In this document: in pieces, positions 18,510-22,449 of the stretch
How positions within the stretch are numbered: the stretch's first letter is position 1
How the letters are laid out: every line of letters starts with the position of its first letter
Assembly: GCA_028870115.1 (NCBI GenBank)
Contig: JAGWQH010000039.1
Coordinates: forward strand, 1 to 42,424
Length of the DNA: 42,424 nt
Direction of reading: 5' to 3'
Source of the DNA: Candidatus Methylomirabilota bacterium
GTDB taxonomy: Bacteria; Methylomirabilota; Methylomirabilia; Methylomirabilales; Methylomirabilaceae
Translations under genes and position numbers: made by a program
The notes under the pieces: model-generated
Databases searched by the model: none
The model's input: only the letters and a program-made list of their open reading frames with translations
Told to the model about the DNA's origin: nothing

Positions 18510-19217
18510 CTAGCGCAGGTTTTCGTAGAAGCGTGCGAAGAGGATCCGGGCCCACCGATTGAGCTCGTCGATCCTGGCTGGAAGCTGCTCAAGGATCGCA
18601 CCAGGCCGGATATAGTCCTTGACTCCATCGAGCTCCTGCGTGAAAGTCCTCACCCACTCAGAGACCATCGATGCAGTGACCTCGAGGTGAAATAGCAGGC
18701 CATAGACGTGGCGGCCGATCGAGAAGGCCTGGCACTCATAGAGCGTTGATCTGGCAAGGTTGACTGCCCCGGGCGGTGTGTCGAAATACTCGCCATGCCA
18801 CTCGAACACCTCAATCGACTCTGGAAACCCGCCGAATAGCCGATCATGCCGCGCCGCCATAGTGAGGTGAACCGGGTACCAGCCGATCTCCTTGCGCGGC
18901 CCCCGGCGGATCGTTCCGCCGGCCGCTTTGGCAATGAGTTGTGACCCGAGGCAGATACCCAATGTGGGGAAATCGAGTTCCATCGCCTCTTTCAGGAGCC
19001 GATCCTCTGTCCTTAACCACGGGTAATCCGCTTCGTCGTTCACACTCATTGGCCCGCCCATGACCAGGAGCCCGGAAAACGGCAACAGGTCGTCCGGCAC
19101 CCGGTCGCCGTCGTACAGCCTCACCGTCTCCACGGGACGTTGCTGCGCCTGCAGTAGGTCAAGGAAGATGCCAGGAGTCTCACACCCGATGTGCTGGAAG
19201 ACCAAGAGTGGTTTCAT
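18510..19217 (-). CDS. Class I glutamine amidotransferase (GATase1) protein
   Basis: A 235-residue stand-alone GATase1-domain protein, related to the glutaminase part of GMP synthase and to gamma-glutamyl hydrolase-like enzymes. The nucleophile Cys is in LGICLGSQLIAKAAGG (about residue 95), the oxyanion glycines in LLVMGGPMSVND, and the His-x-Glu of the triad in GLLFHLEVT (about 175; usually FHPE, here FHLE). EWHGEYFDTP also matches the family. Such proteins hydrolyse glutamine to supply ammonia or act as peptidase-like hydrolases; no synthetase partner is next to it, so the substrate is unclear. The ATG start is followed immediately by a typical KPLLVFQH strand. Confidence 0.88.
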   Translation of the reverse strand: MKPLLVFQHIGCETPGIFLDLLQAQQRPVETVRLYDGDRVPDDLLPFSGLLVMGGPMSVNDEADYPWLRTEDRLLKEAMELDFPTLGICLGSQLIAKAAGGTIRRGPRKEIGWYPVHLTMAARHDRLFGGFPESIEVFEWHGEYFDTPPGAVNLARSTLYECQAFSIGRHVYGLLFHLEVTASMVSEWVRTFTQELDGVKDYIRPGAILEQLPARIDELNRWARILFARFYENLR

Positions 19218-19407: not shown

Positions 19408-19782
19408 TTAGTGCTCACGATACTGATCAGCAGCGATACGAAGCGCACGTGCCGCTTCGTGGAGGGCCTTATCCTGCGTCCACAGGCGACAGGACGAAAG
19501 GAAAGCACCGCCGAGCAGGTGGACATCTACCCAGCCCAAACCACGGCCGGAGAGCTGGTGCTGATCCACGAAACGGAGAAGCTCGTCGTGCTCTGTCACC
19601 CGCGCTTGTGGCAGGGCCGCCAACAGGCCGAGGATCTCCCGCCGGTTTCGTAAATGCCCACATGCGAGCTCGCCGATCACGAAGGGGTGGCACACCACAT
19701 GCCCCTCGTGGAGCAATTCAACGAGCTGCGCCCGGCCTCGGGCCAGATGGTCAACCCACACGGAGGTGTCGACGAGGATCAT
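19408..19782 (-). CDS. VapC-type PIN-domain toxin (second vapBC pair)
   Basis: A 124-residue PIN-domain ribonuclease beginning MILVDTSVWVDHLARG with the first catalytic Asp. It is followed by FVIGELACGHLRN (Glu) and GWVDVHLLGGA and LWTQDKAL (Asp residues of the site). It is not a close copy of the first VapC (8766-9176); this one belongs to the short group typified by VDTSVWI. Its ATG overlaps the antitoxin TGA as TGATG, so translation is coupled. The toxin is expected to cut specific RNAs when the antitoxin is lost. Downstream, 19218-19407 holds no gene I can support before the convergently placed amidotransferase start. Confidence 0.88.
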   Translation of the reverse strand: MILVDTSVWVDHLARGRAQLVELLHEGHVVCHPFVIGELACGHLRNRREILGLLAALPQARVTEHDELLRFVDQHQLSGRGLGWVDVHLLGGAFLSSCRLWTQDKALHEAARALRIAADQYREH

Positions 19783-19976
19783 CAGGCCGCTGAGCGGCGA
19801 CGGCGGACCGAGCGAAGCGAGCTCTCGGTCCCGCCCAGCTTGGCCAGACGACGAGCACTCTCCAGCGCAATCAGGGCCTCTAGCCCACGCCGGATCAAGG
19901 CGGTCTTCTCGCTGATCCCGGTCAACTGCTCAGCCCTCTTCAGGAGTGAGTCATCGATATTGAGTGTGGTTCTCAT
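19782..19976 (-). CDS. VapB-type antitoxin (second vapBC pair)
   Basis: A 64-residue ribbon-helix-helix-like antitoxin, MRTTLNIDDSLLKRAEQL then TALIRRGLEALIALESARRL, of the type that pairs with short VapC toxins. The ATG at 19976 is chosen over the one at 19982 because the family starts with M-R-T-T-L. There is no Shine-Dalgarno sequence. The -10 box ends only 7 nt before this ATG, so the message is probably leaderless. The C-terminal Arg-rich tail (SVRRRRSA) is positively charged and could contact the toxin. Confidence 0.85.
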   Translation of the reverse strand: MRTTLNIDDSLLKRAEQLTGISEKTALIRRGLEALIALESARRLAKLGGTESSLRSVRRRRSAA

Positions 19977-19983
19977 ATGCATC

Positions 19984-20023: not shown

Positions 20024-20122
20024 GCGCTAACACGTTTGAGCTCAAGGGCTGCCGGTGCCCGAAGGGCAGAGGGAACCAACAAGCGCCGCTTGTTGGCGGT
20101 CCCCTGAAACGAAGGGTTAGGC
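20024..20122 (-). repeat. attC-like recombination site
   Basis: Read on the minus strand, this 99-bp imperfect palindrome starts with GCCTAAC (20122-20116), a good inverse core site, and ends with GTTAGCGC (20031-20024), which differs from the ideal GTTAGGC. Internal arms include CCAACAAGC/GCTTGTTGG and a CAAACG box typical of integron 59-base elements. The TAA of the HNH gene lies inside GCCTAAC, the classic layout of a gene cassette. No integron integrase is in the window. Confidence 0.6.
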
Positions 20123-20808
20123 ATGGCGCTCATTACGGCTGGAATTCTCGGAGACCATCCCGGTGAGTTCTTCAATTGATAGAGGAGCATCGCGCCTTCG
20201 ATGGACCATTCGATGGCAATTGGAGCAGAGCACGGTCAAGTCGTCTTTGGGATTGATGGTAGATGGCTCAGGAAGGGTGGAGATTGGAACGACGTGATGA
20301 ACTTCAATATAGTTCTTCCCGTGCGCTCCGTATGCAGCCTCAAAATTGAAATCACAGGCTTTGCATGTTGTTCCGTAGATTTTAATTGCAGCCACGCGAA
20401 GTTTAAGCTTGCGCTCGAAATATGAAACGAGGCGTGCTTTTCTCGGGCCTGCTATACCGCTTTCCTCTTCCTGCAATCCATCCAAATCAGCAGCAACCTG
20501 CTTCCGAAGGGAATGGTCGTCGAAGAACTCGCGGATTCTGGAGATGTCGTCCGAGTGAGTTGTATTCTCCTCAAGTGCAAGTTGTAGTTTGGTTGACCTC
20601 GAATCGAGCCAGTCGAACAGAGCGTGGTCAAACTCCGAGGTTCCGTTAATTGCCGGGCGCAATTGCCGACGGAACTTGTCGGAAACGGTCGAATGTGACG
20701 CAATGCCTTCTTTCTCAAGTCCCTGACATTTTCCCCCGACATCTGGGGCCTGTAGTGGCCGGCAACATCGCGAAGAACTTCCATGATCTCGTTGATTCGA
20801 TCACTCAT
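20117..20808 (-). pseudogene. HNH endonuclease gene with a frameshift
   Basis: The C-terminal frame (stop at 20117) encodes an HNH nuclease domain: CKACDFNFEAAYGAHG, then IEVHHVVPIS with the catalytic His pair, then NPKDDLTVLCSNCHRMVHRR with the zinc-binding Cys-x-x-Cys. Upstream, KFRRQLRPAINGTSEFDHAL is in the same frame. The natural start, ATG at 20808 (GGGGAGGTACG upstream), reads MSDRINEIMEVLRDVAGHYR in another frame. The two join if one base is restored near 20723, where ...NVRDL should lead into EKEGIASHSTVSDKF. This is either a real mutation or a sequence error. The gene is less GC-rich than its neighbours and ends in an attC-like site, which suggests horizontal arrival as a cassette. 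Confidence 0.75.
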
Positions 20809-20908
20809 CGTACCTCCCCTTGCTGCCGAACTACTGATTAGCCTAGTCAGGCTATCAGTATTAGGTTGGTCGGCCTATTACATCCTTGGAGCTCCAACGA
20901 TTGCCGCG

Positions 20909-20937
20909 ATTGTCTAGCCGTTCCAGGGAGTTGTCAA
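20909..20937 (-). promoter_or_regulatory. Candidate promoter of the HNH gene
   Basis: TTGACA (20932-20937), a 17-nt spacer and GACAAT (20909-20914) on the minus strand, about 100 nt before the HNH ATG. A hairpin (CTGATTAGCC/GGCTATCAG, 20834-20858) lies in the leader. The rest of the 20809-21249 gap holds a REP-like repeat and the thiI promoter region. Confidence 0.35.
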
Positions 20938-21000
20938 GGGTTTCCATAGAAAACGCGCCTACGTTGGTCCTTGTCACAGGAGGAGGTCATCATGCCGGCC

Positions 21001-21058
21001 CGTCACCCCGGCGAAAGCCGGGGTCCAGGGCTGGATTCCGGCTTACGCCGGAATGACG
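21001..21058. repeat. REP-like double-hairpin intergenic repeat
   Basis: Two stem-loops in tandem: CCCCGGC-GAAA-GCCGGGG and ATTCCGGC-TTAC-GCCGGAAT, enclosed by CGTCA and TGACG. This repeat is familiar from the intergenic regions of many unrelated bacteria and gives a spurious reading frame (PARHPGESRGPGLDSGLRRN). It lies between the HNH gene and thiI. Confidence 0.75.
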
Positions 21059-21204
21059 AACGGTTGCGGACTCACGGAGAAGCTGGGAGAATCCTTGCCG
21101 AAGGTAAGTCTTTTGGGTGCGCCGTGGTGCGGCACTACCGCATGAAGTTTCACTTGCCTTTCAAGCGGCGCCCCACGAGCTCTTTGCGTGCAAGCGGAAA
21201 TCGA

Positions 21205-21249: not shown

Positions 21250-22449
21250 ATGAAAACTAAAAGCAACGCGATGGCACAACCGCCGGTGAGGGGCGTCCTC
21301 ATCCATTACCACGAGATTGCACTCAAAGGGAAAAACCGGAGCTTCTTTCTGAAGCAGCTTGAGGCTAATCTCCTGGCGGCCACGCGTGATCTCGACTGTG
21401 GCCCGCTCCGGCGACCCGCCGGTCGGCTATTCCTGGAGTTGCGGGAGGAGAGTTCGTGGGAGGTCTTGCGGCAGCGGTTGAGCCGAGTCTTCGGAATTGC
21501 GAATTTCGCCCCCGCCTTCACGATGGCGCCCAACCTGGAGTTGCTCGCACAACGGATCGAAGAGGAGGTCTGCAACCGCTCATTTCGCAGCTTTCGCGTG
21601 GCGGCCCGTCGTGCCTTCAAGACCTTTCCGCAGACCTCCCAGGAGATCAACGAGATGATCGGGGCCAGAGTGCAGCGTATCCATGGCGCCGACGTCGATC
21701 TCACCAATCCGGACCTGACCATCTACATCGAGTTGCTCCCCGCAGAGGCTTTTGTCTACTTCGAGAAGCTCTTGGGCCCCGGAGGCCTGCCGGTGGGGAC
21801 CGGCGGGACCCTTGCGTGTCTGCTGTCAGGCGGGATCGACTCCCCGGTTGCGGCTCATCGGATGATGAAGCGGGGCTGCCGTATCGTCTTTGTCCACTTC
21901 CATAGCCAGCCGTTCGCCGACCGAACCTCACAGGAAAAAGCAATCGAGCTGGTACGCCTTCTCACCCGGTACCAGTTTACCTCTCGCCTCTACCTGGTAC
22001 CCTTCGGCGAAATCCAGCAGGAGGTCGTTGCTCGCGTCACGGGACGCTTGAGGGTCCTTGTGTATCGACGGCTGATGTTGCGAATCGCCGAACAGATCGC
22101 TCAAAAGGAAGGCGCCCAAGCCCTGGTGACCGGTGAGAGTCTCGGTCAGGTGTCGTCACAAACCGTTGAAAACATCGCGACCATTGAACAGGCATCCACC
22201 CTGCCGATTCTGCGGCCATTGATCGGCATGGATAAGGACGAGATCACGCAGCAGGCGCAGCAGATCGGCAGCTACGATGTCTCGGTCATCCCCGACCAGG
22301 ACTGCTGCTCGATGTTCACGCCCAGGCAGGCGGCGACACATACGACTCACCACGAGATCGAATTCGCTGAGCGCCCTCTTGACCTGGACCGACTCACAGC
22401 GAAGGCGCGCGCTGCTGCGCACTCCGTCGAGCTGTCGTTTCCCGTCTGA
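21250..22449 (+). CDS. thiI: tRNA 4-thiouridine synthetase ThiI
   Basis: A 399-residue ThiI, which adenylates U8 of tRNA and transfers sulfur to form 4-thiouridine; in some bacteria it also takes part in thiazole synthesis. An N-terminal ferredoxin-like part (VLIHYHEIALKGKNRSFF) and a THUMP domain (about residues 60-165) precede the PP-loop ATPase domain. The ATP-binding motif LLSGGIDSPVAAHRM is near residue 193. The C-terminus has the conserved DQDCCSMFTPRQAATH. The rhodanese domain of the E. coli protein is absent, as in the Bacillus and archaeal types, so sulfur must come from another carrier. GGAGGAATT precedes the ATG. Confidence 0.95.
   Translation: MKTKSNAMAQPPVRGVLIHYHEIALKGKNRSFFLKQLEANLLAATRDLDCGPLRRPAGRLFLELREESSWEVLRQRLSRVFGIANFAPAFTMAPNLELLAQRIEEEVCNRSFRSFRVAARRAFKTFPQTSQEINEMIGARVQRIHGADVDLTNPDLTIYIELLPAEAFVYFEKLLGPGGLPVGTGGTLACLLSGGIDSPVAAHRMMKRGCRIVFVHFHSQPFADRTSQEKAIELVRLLTRYQFTSRLYLVPFGEIQQEVVARVTGRLRVLVYRRLMLRIAEQIAQKEGAQALVTGESLGQVSSQTVENIATIEQASTLPILRPLIGMDKDEITQQAQQIGSYDVSVIPDQDCCSMFTPRQAATHTTHHEIEFAERPLDLDRLTAKARAAAHSVELSFPV

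Follow-up and report, generated by a model that had tools for sequence, protein, structure and literature searches.

A probable integrase-less promoter-attI platform with an HNH gene cassette beside thiI in a Methylomirabilota genome

The window, by which we mean the whole 42,424-nucleotide stretch of DNA analysed here (contig JAGWQH010000039.1 of a Candidatus Methylomirabilota bacterium, assembly GCA_028870115.1), hosts an HNH endonuclease gene between a class-I glutamine amidotransferase gene and thiI. The coordinates of this and the other features are collected in Table 1. A sequence-only reading had proposed that the gene is an orphan integron gene cassette, with an attC-like site behind it. 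Direct reading of the minus strand confirms that the stop codon (TAA, 20119-20117) lies inside a GCCTAAC core, and that the site behind the gene is 99 nucleotides long and ends in GTTAGCGC (20031-20024). The gene is also, as had been claimed, poorer in GC than its flanks (0.524 for 20031-20824 against 0.602 and 0.601). The best PADLOC match of the HNH frame is mREase_IV (E 6.7e-9, residues 77-166), and a comparison with NCBIfam gave no match. The gene is broken near its 5′ end, where the frame that starts at the ATG differs from the HNH frame. This break is shared by a near-identical contig of the MAG REEB33, which has 6 mismatches and no gap over 1974 bp.

Table 1. Coordinates of features in the window and, in the last four rows, of related features on other stretches (L numbers).
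Feature	Position	Strand	Remarks
Class-I glutamine amidotransferase gene, left chromosomal flank	18510-19217	-	Directly beside thiI in three relatives without insert
vapC-like PIN-domain gene	19408-19782	-	PF01850, E 1.9e-7; NF047959 below its cut-off
vapB antitoxin gene, possibly in next cassette	19782-19982	-	PF09957, E 6.4e-14; 5′ two thirds common with G004
Degenerate attC (candidate)	20024-20122	-	R″ GCCTAAC 20122-20116; L″ TTCAGGGGACC; R′ GTTAGCG 20031-20025; left half common with a G005 attC
HNH gene cassette (probable)	20031-20830	-	From TTCGGC to last G before TTAGCGC; GNAT gene between the same flanks in G004
HNH endonuclease frame, 181 aa from TTG	20117-20662	-	PF01844, E 2e-7
HNH gene 5′ part in other frame (ATG 20808), frame break	20663-20808	-	Same in REEB33 copy
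Pc-like promoter and putative attI core	20825-20937	-	TTGACA 20937-20932, N17, GACAAT 20914-20909; core ...AATAGGCCGACCAACCTAATACTGATAGCCTGACTAGGCTAATCAGTAG|TTCGGC
Multi-copy REP-like repeat between attI and thiI	21000-21060	.	Short matches in several genomes (DNA search, query 1601-1663)
thiI, right chromosomal flank	21250-22449	+	
intI remnant stretches, window's genome	L086, L087, L088, L122, L123, L124, L125		
G005 polymerase 3′ pieces with intI stub	L202 3418-3517; L203 5968-6150		
G007 polymerase 3′ pieces with intI stub	L238 786-1325; L238 4135-4203		
Pc-like promoter without GTT	L200 432-511; L160 2301-2368; L159 3421-3484; L209 3442-3530		

The HNH gene is the first gene behind a promoter-like element that recurs in related genomes. 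Most copies share the consensus TTGACA-N17-GA(G/C)AAT, followed by a conserved stretch and then by ...TAG|TTRRRY or something near it. In the window the corresponding box, GTTCGGC, is one letter off GTTRRRY, and the presumed crossover falls between 20831 and 20830. The repeat-like sequences between the element and thiI (20955-21201) vary, being REP-like here and another palindromic repeat in the relatives G004, G007 and G014.

A good illustration of the behaviour of this place comes from comparing the window's genome (G000) with its relatives, which are given the other G numbers. When the flanks were used as query in a DNA search, the relatives turned out to have short blocks around the HNH gene in common with the window but to lack the gene, the near-identical contig G001:C79 being the exception. 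Behind the element of roughly 130 bp beside thiI we find the HNH gene in G000, a GNAT gene (PF00583) in G004, an ORF of 195 amino acids in G007 and G014, and a third ORF in G001, whose contig C147 ends there. These differing first genes are all on one strand, and in G000, G004, G007 and G014 the amidotransferase gene stands on the far side of the insert. The amidotransferase gene adjoins thiI with neither insert nor element in G003, G013 and G008, and in G005, G009 and G010 other sequence lies beside thiI, by eye a REP-type transposase gene.

The junctions of the exchanged gene can be placed closely in the pair G000 and G004, which are 89% identical on both sides of it. On the near side identity ends four letters beyond GTTCGGC, and on the far side it resumes exactly at GTTAGCGC (20031). 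These junctions show the precise insertion at G|TT that defines a cassette, the far one on the evidence of a single genome pair. As to the other hallmark of a cassette, an ORF followed by an attC, the ORF is frame-broken and the site has good R″ and L″ boxes and degenerate R′ and L′ boxes. The cassette reading of the HNH gene is most likely right.

The attC site itself is the weaker part of this picture. The R′ box GTTAGCG is two letters off GTTRRRY, and our first attC finder missed the site because of this degenerate box. The site had been described as palindromic, and here the folding energies do not bear the description out beyond chance: folded as DNA, the 99 nucleotides reach -18.1 kcal/mol against -15.5 for shuffled sequences (z -0.91, with 40 of 200 shuffles at least as good), and the opposite strand is likewise near its shuffles (z -1.00, 34 of 200 as good). 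A search of Rfam with the 2-kb region gave no match up to E 1, and a DNA search of the window's own genome with the 99-nucleotide site found only the site itself.

We also scored the site with a covariance model, R1, trained on 18 attC sites from relatives, all on stretches that carry intI, with the window's genome excluded; these training sites had been picked from finder matches for their canonical look. Paired cells make up 91.7% of the R1 alignment but 73.8% of shuffled ones, and covariation is 0.431 against 0.124, the structure having been drawn from the same sequences on which these values were computed. The covariance check suggested in the sequence-only reading does give a match (15.1 bits, the second of four R1 matches in the window), but a weak one (E 0.015 when 4 kb are searched, 0.16 over the whole window). 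Nor is the site among the 18 matches at E ≤ 1 in its own genome, where the best 150 of 2393 candidates were scored. By score alone the site would not pass as an attC. The earlier reading had held that a score no better than background would count against it; the score comes close to that, and the case for a cassette rests instead on attI and the exchange junctions. In its R″ and L″ half the site matches a G005 attC with a score of 35.2 bits. A pattern made of its left 26 letters, accepting C or T at three positions, fits only three places in the 15 genomes of the genus (the window, G001:C79 and this G005 attC); the pattern was drawn from the very sites it finds and so is not independent evidence, and its backward control gave no match in the same 15 genomes. 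At the same place beside thiI, G007 has a weak attC where one is expected (15.3 bits, E 0.95), and the GNAT cassette of G004 has no recognisable attC.

The next genes in the window, vapB and a vapC-like gene, are possibly a second cassette. Identity between G004 and the window breaks inside vapB, with no demonstrable G|TT there, and there is no convincing attC behind the vapC-like gene. One further R1 match, at 19789-19844, scores above the site behind the HNH gene (16.3 bits), and we rejected it as an attC because it lies inside the 3′ coding end of vapB.

In order to follow the promoter element in other genomes we used a sequence model, R2, made from 14 elements of the genus. These include the window's own, whose R2 score is therefore high by construction. 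All counts with R1 and R2 are lower bounds, the best 150 candidates per genome having been scored (the best 40 in the R2 search outside the genus). R2 has at least 175 matches at E ≤ 0.01 in the genus, found in 15 of 15 genomes with 1-30 in each, and at least 26 matches in 12 of 79 genomes outside it. We fetched 13 of these 26, three of them picked for nearness to intI, and in six of the 13, intI or its 3′ stub lies on the same strand, 82-93 bp upstream of the element; L229, another of the 13, has no IntI match. Because of this arrangement, and from its sequence, we read the element in the window as a putative attI with its promoter.

Within the genus we inspected 46 elements: 19 of G005, 10 of the window's genome, 13 from a first similarity search and 4 chosen for a nearby attC. 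They remain from 49 R2 matches after three (L161 1493, L124 4690 and L212 13919) were dropped. An intI 3′ stub lies 82-105 bp upstream of six of them, one of these stubs being weak (E 0.011), and in two more elements the upstream stub is 36 bp (E 0.03) or 440 bp away. No intI or stub was found within 500 bp downstream or antisense of the 46. A GTT stands 83-85 nucleotides past the start of TTGACA in 19 of the 46 elements, against a background of 0.72 per position. In the phylum, intI points towards attI and the cassettes. The link between element and integrase has its gaps, for R2 finds no match beside the seven intI remnants of the window's genome or at the attI of the intact integron of G013. 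These places have attI-like sequences of their own, so several types of attI exist, and the type in the window appears to be tied to intI only in relatives.

How often attC sites accompany the element bears on whether it is an attI at all. Within 3 kb of the 150 genus R2 matches listed out of 175, and taking in all 130 attC matches, R1 finds an attC downstream on the same strand in 12 cases, upstream in 3 and on the opposite strand in none. Many R2 matches score low, and roughly nine in ten of those listed lack an attC in this range; since only 12 of the 150 have one downstream, weak matches may be plain promoters. This count would suit an element that is a multi-copy promoter repeat and nothing else, the gene differences being due to ordinary recombination or deletion and the attC-like site to a chance match. 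The weak R1 score in the window and the lack of R2 matches at the genome's own intI remnants would suit it too, as would the presence, in several genomes, of such a promoter without its usual GTT in front of one small conserved gene. Even so we think it improbable: it leaves out the exact GTT junction, the GTT at a fixed offset and the intI or stubs near elements both inside and outside the genus. It also leaves out orientation. On 36 partly chosen stretches there are 44 attC matches at E ≤ 0.5, four of which are second readings on the other strand, and the remaining 40, by our reading of the table, have the same orientation as the element or stub of their locus. The promoter that lacks GTT at the usual offset is seen before the same small conserved gene in four genomes, where it is possibly a domesticated Pc.

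A search of all six frames of the window with an IntI profile built here gave no match, which upholds the earlier remark that no integrase is nearby. Searches of the whole genome, as had been proposed, recovered 7 intI 3′ remnants and at least 13 attC sites elsewhere (E ≤ 0.01), along with at least 11 R2 matches (the window's included), but no intact intI, the best match reaching 88 bits against a cut-off of 265. All 7 remnants are C-terminal (profile positions about 297-362 of 365), and one of them, on C74, is weak. R1 finds at least 130 attC at E ≤ 0.01 in 14 of the 15 genus genomes. Of the 59 IntI matches at E ≤ 1e-4 in G005, G004, G007, G014 and G001, none reaches the intI cut-off; by our own sorting 28 are C-terminal fragments, 2 are N-terminal and 29 lie in other recombinase-sized ORFs. 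The C-terminal excess may in part be a detection bias, and the profile starts of the stubs may be biased toward a conserved box. G005, which is assembled as one contig, has at least 20 R2 matches and at least 10 attC and no intact intI. Phylum-wide, 32 of 95 genomes contain a match above the cut-off.

An integrase acting in trans could have put the HNH cassette at a secondary chromosomal site where there was no platform. The lack of intI in the window fits such an orphan cassette, and insertion at secondary sites is described in excerpts of PMC10127599. We still give this possibility little credence: copies related to the element that borders the cassette are found next to intI in other families, and beside thiI the element is followed by four different first genes. 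The orphan part of the earlier proposal therefore falls, the HNH gene being first behind a promoter-attI element in a genome with attC sites elsewhere and integrase remnants.

Very probably, then, the locus is an integrase-less Pc-attI platform with a captured HNH cassette and a decayed attC, set between the amidotransferase gene and thiI. This reading draws on sequence homology, junctions and adjacency, and from these we infer capture by IntI, transcription from Pc and action in trans. Judging from the junctions, an integron integrase would once have joined the attC of the cassette to attI at G|TT, and the promoter motif suggests that Pc would transcribe the cassette. Because no intact intI was found in the genome, we expect the HNH cassette to stay where it is, barring the action of an integrase from outside. 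The platform would be one of a family of Pc-attI elements dispersed along the chromosome, some of which in relatives still keep the last 20-65 or so codons of intI.

The locus seems to be one of several to many such platforms per chromosome, dispersed and partly in tandem. Among the 150 listed R2 matches, 15 pairs within 3 kb are on the same strand and none on opposite strands, three of these pairs being one triplet in G005. For example, L207 has the order attI, gene pair, attC, attI, gene, attC, and L128 has a two-gene unit, its second gene ParE-like, between two Pc-attI copies 631 bp apart. Toxin-antitoxin-like pairs are seen to end just before a Pc-attI element at L129 449-951 (Phd/YoeB by family search), L161 135-637, L128 1100-1557 (ParE-like) and L131 9782-10350.

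Another view of dispersal is given by an error-prone DNA polymerase gene (NF004225). In G013 (L082 5079-9316, contig C37) an intact intI (TIGR02249, 469 bits), followed by four attC on the same strand, overlaps the end of this gene, the stop and likely start forming TGATG. The overlap suggests one operon, and perhaps damage-induced expression. The same order is found in G006 (L085), where intI is frame-broken. A polymerase gene aligned nearly end to end and followed by an intI stub is present in the window's genome on C64 (L087) and in G005 at 1093 kb (L237, aligned over residues 3-1053). Away from a full-length gene, polymerase 3′ pieces with an intI stub occur at four places, three of them with a Pc-attI element: G005 at 541 kb (62 residues) and at 1086 kb (about 30 residues), each followed by stub and element, G007:C60 (159 residues, stub and R2 match) and a second place in G007 (about 22 residues and stub, with no R2 match). 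The two G005 places at 541 and 1086 kb share one junction with C64, which points to a single event with later copying; that intI was cut at G|TT of its own codons is offered only as a lead. It follows that units which agree at the 3′ end, while their 5′ ends are ragged, were copied. Cassettes that end in attI, which excerpts of PMC12901181 describe as functional in class 1 integrons, offer by analogy a possible route for this copying.

A wider proposal, which we put forward as doubtful, is that the integron of this genus is a dispersed network. The Pc-attI module would have spread over the chromosome in the manner of a cassette, with the attI crossover as its constant 3′ end and a 5′ end that varies from copy to copy. 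In places it would carry the 3′ ends of intI and polymerase, and within arrays it would form tandem modules. A single trans-acting integrase, now often lost, could thereby load and express cassettes at up to 20-30 sites.

Known systems, compared here through excerpts of the papers cited, resemble the locus in part. In the chromosomal integron of Treponema intI is transcribed toward attI (PMC3607928). The relatives studied here are alike in that intI is co-oriented with the cassettes and attI lies behind its 3′ end, but in the genus intI is absent or a 3′ stub at most places seen, and many attI-like elements can lie dispersed in one genome. CALINs, which by definition have no intI and a minimum of two attC spaced by less than 4 kb, also consist of cassettes with no integrase beside them, and these are described as mobilisable in trans (PMC9668308, PMC12444791). 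The window, with one weak attC and the doubtful match inside vapB, is not a CALIN and, unlike one, keeps Pc and attI. Nor does it have a functional intI adjoining attI, as in a complete integron, or an intI without attC, as in an In0. Decay of intI is well known (PMC2426708, PMC12444791). Xanthomonas integrons with inactivated intI have likewise lost intI repeatedly and retained cassettes; there, intI is at one place (ilvD) with extra CALINs at up to seven others (PMC12444791), whereas the Pc-attI elements here are multi-copy, with 1-30 R2 matches per genome among those scored. The L128 unit has attI on both sides, like the Delta-attI-type cassettes described for class 1 and 2 mobile integrons (PMC12901181), and differs in being chromosomal and in including the promoter.

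Among the open-licence papers listed by our searches, judged for the group by title and opening of the abstract, we found none on integrons of Methylomirabilota and none that describes dispersed or orphan attI, which is weak evidence of absence, and agrees with the earlier impression that integrons are little described in this group. Word searches found no mention of NC10 in PMC9668308, or of Methylomirabil, NC10 or Rokubact in PMC8352920.

In summary, the finding in the window is real in outline. It is a platform remnant and not an orphan cassette, its unusual part being the multi-copy Pc-attI elements. The usual picture of an integron is one attI beside one intI; here attI and its promoter seem to occur in multiple copies, most of them lacking an integrase. 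Since the one-contig genome G005 shows this pattern too, the missing integrase is unlikely to be explained by an assembly gap. This raises the questions of whether attI itself can spread, whether loss of the integrase is favoured once capture has taken place, and whether search methods built on intI or on attC clusters miss platforms of this kind.
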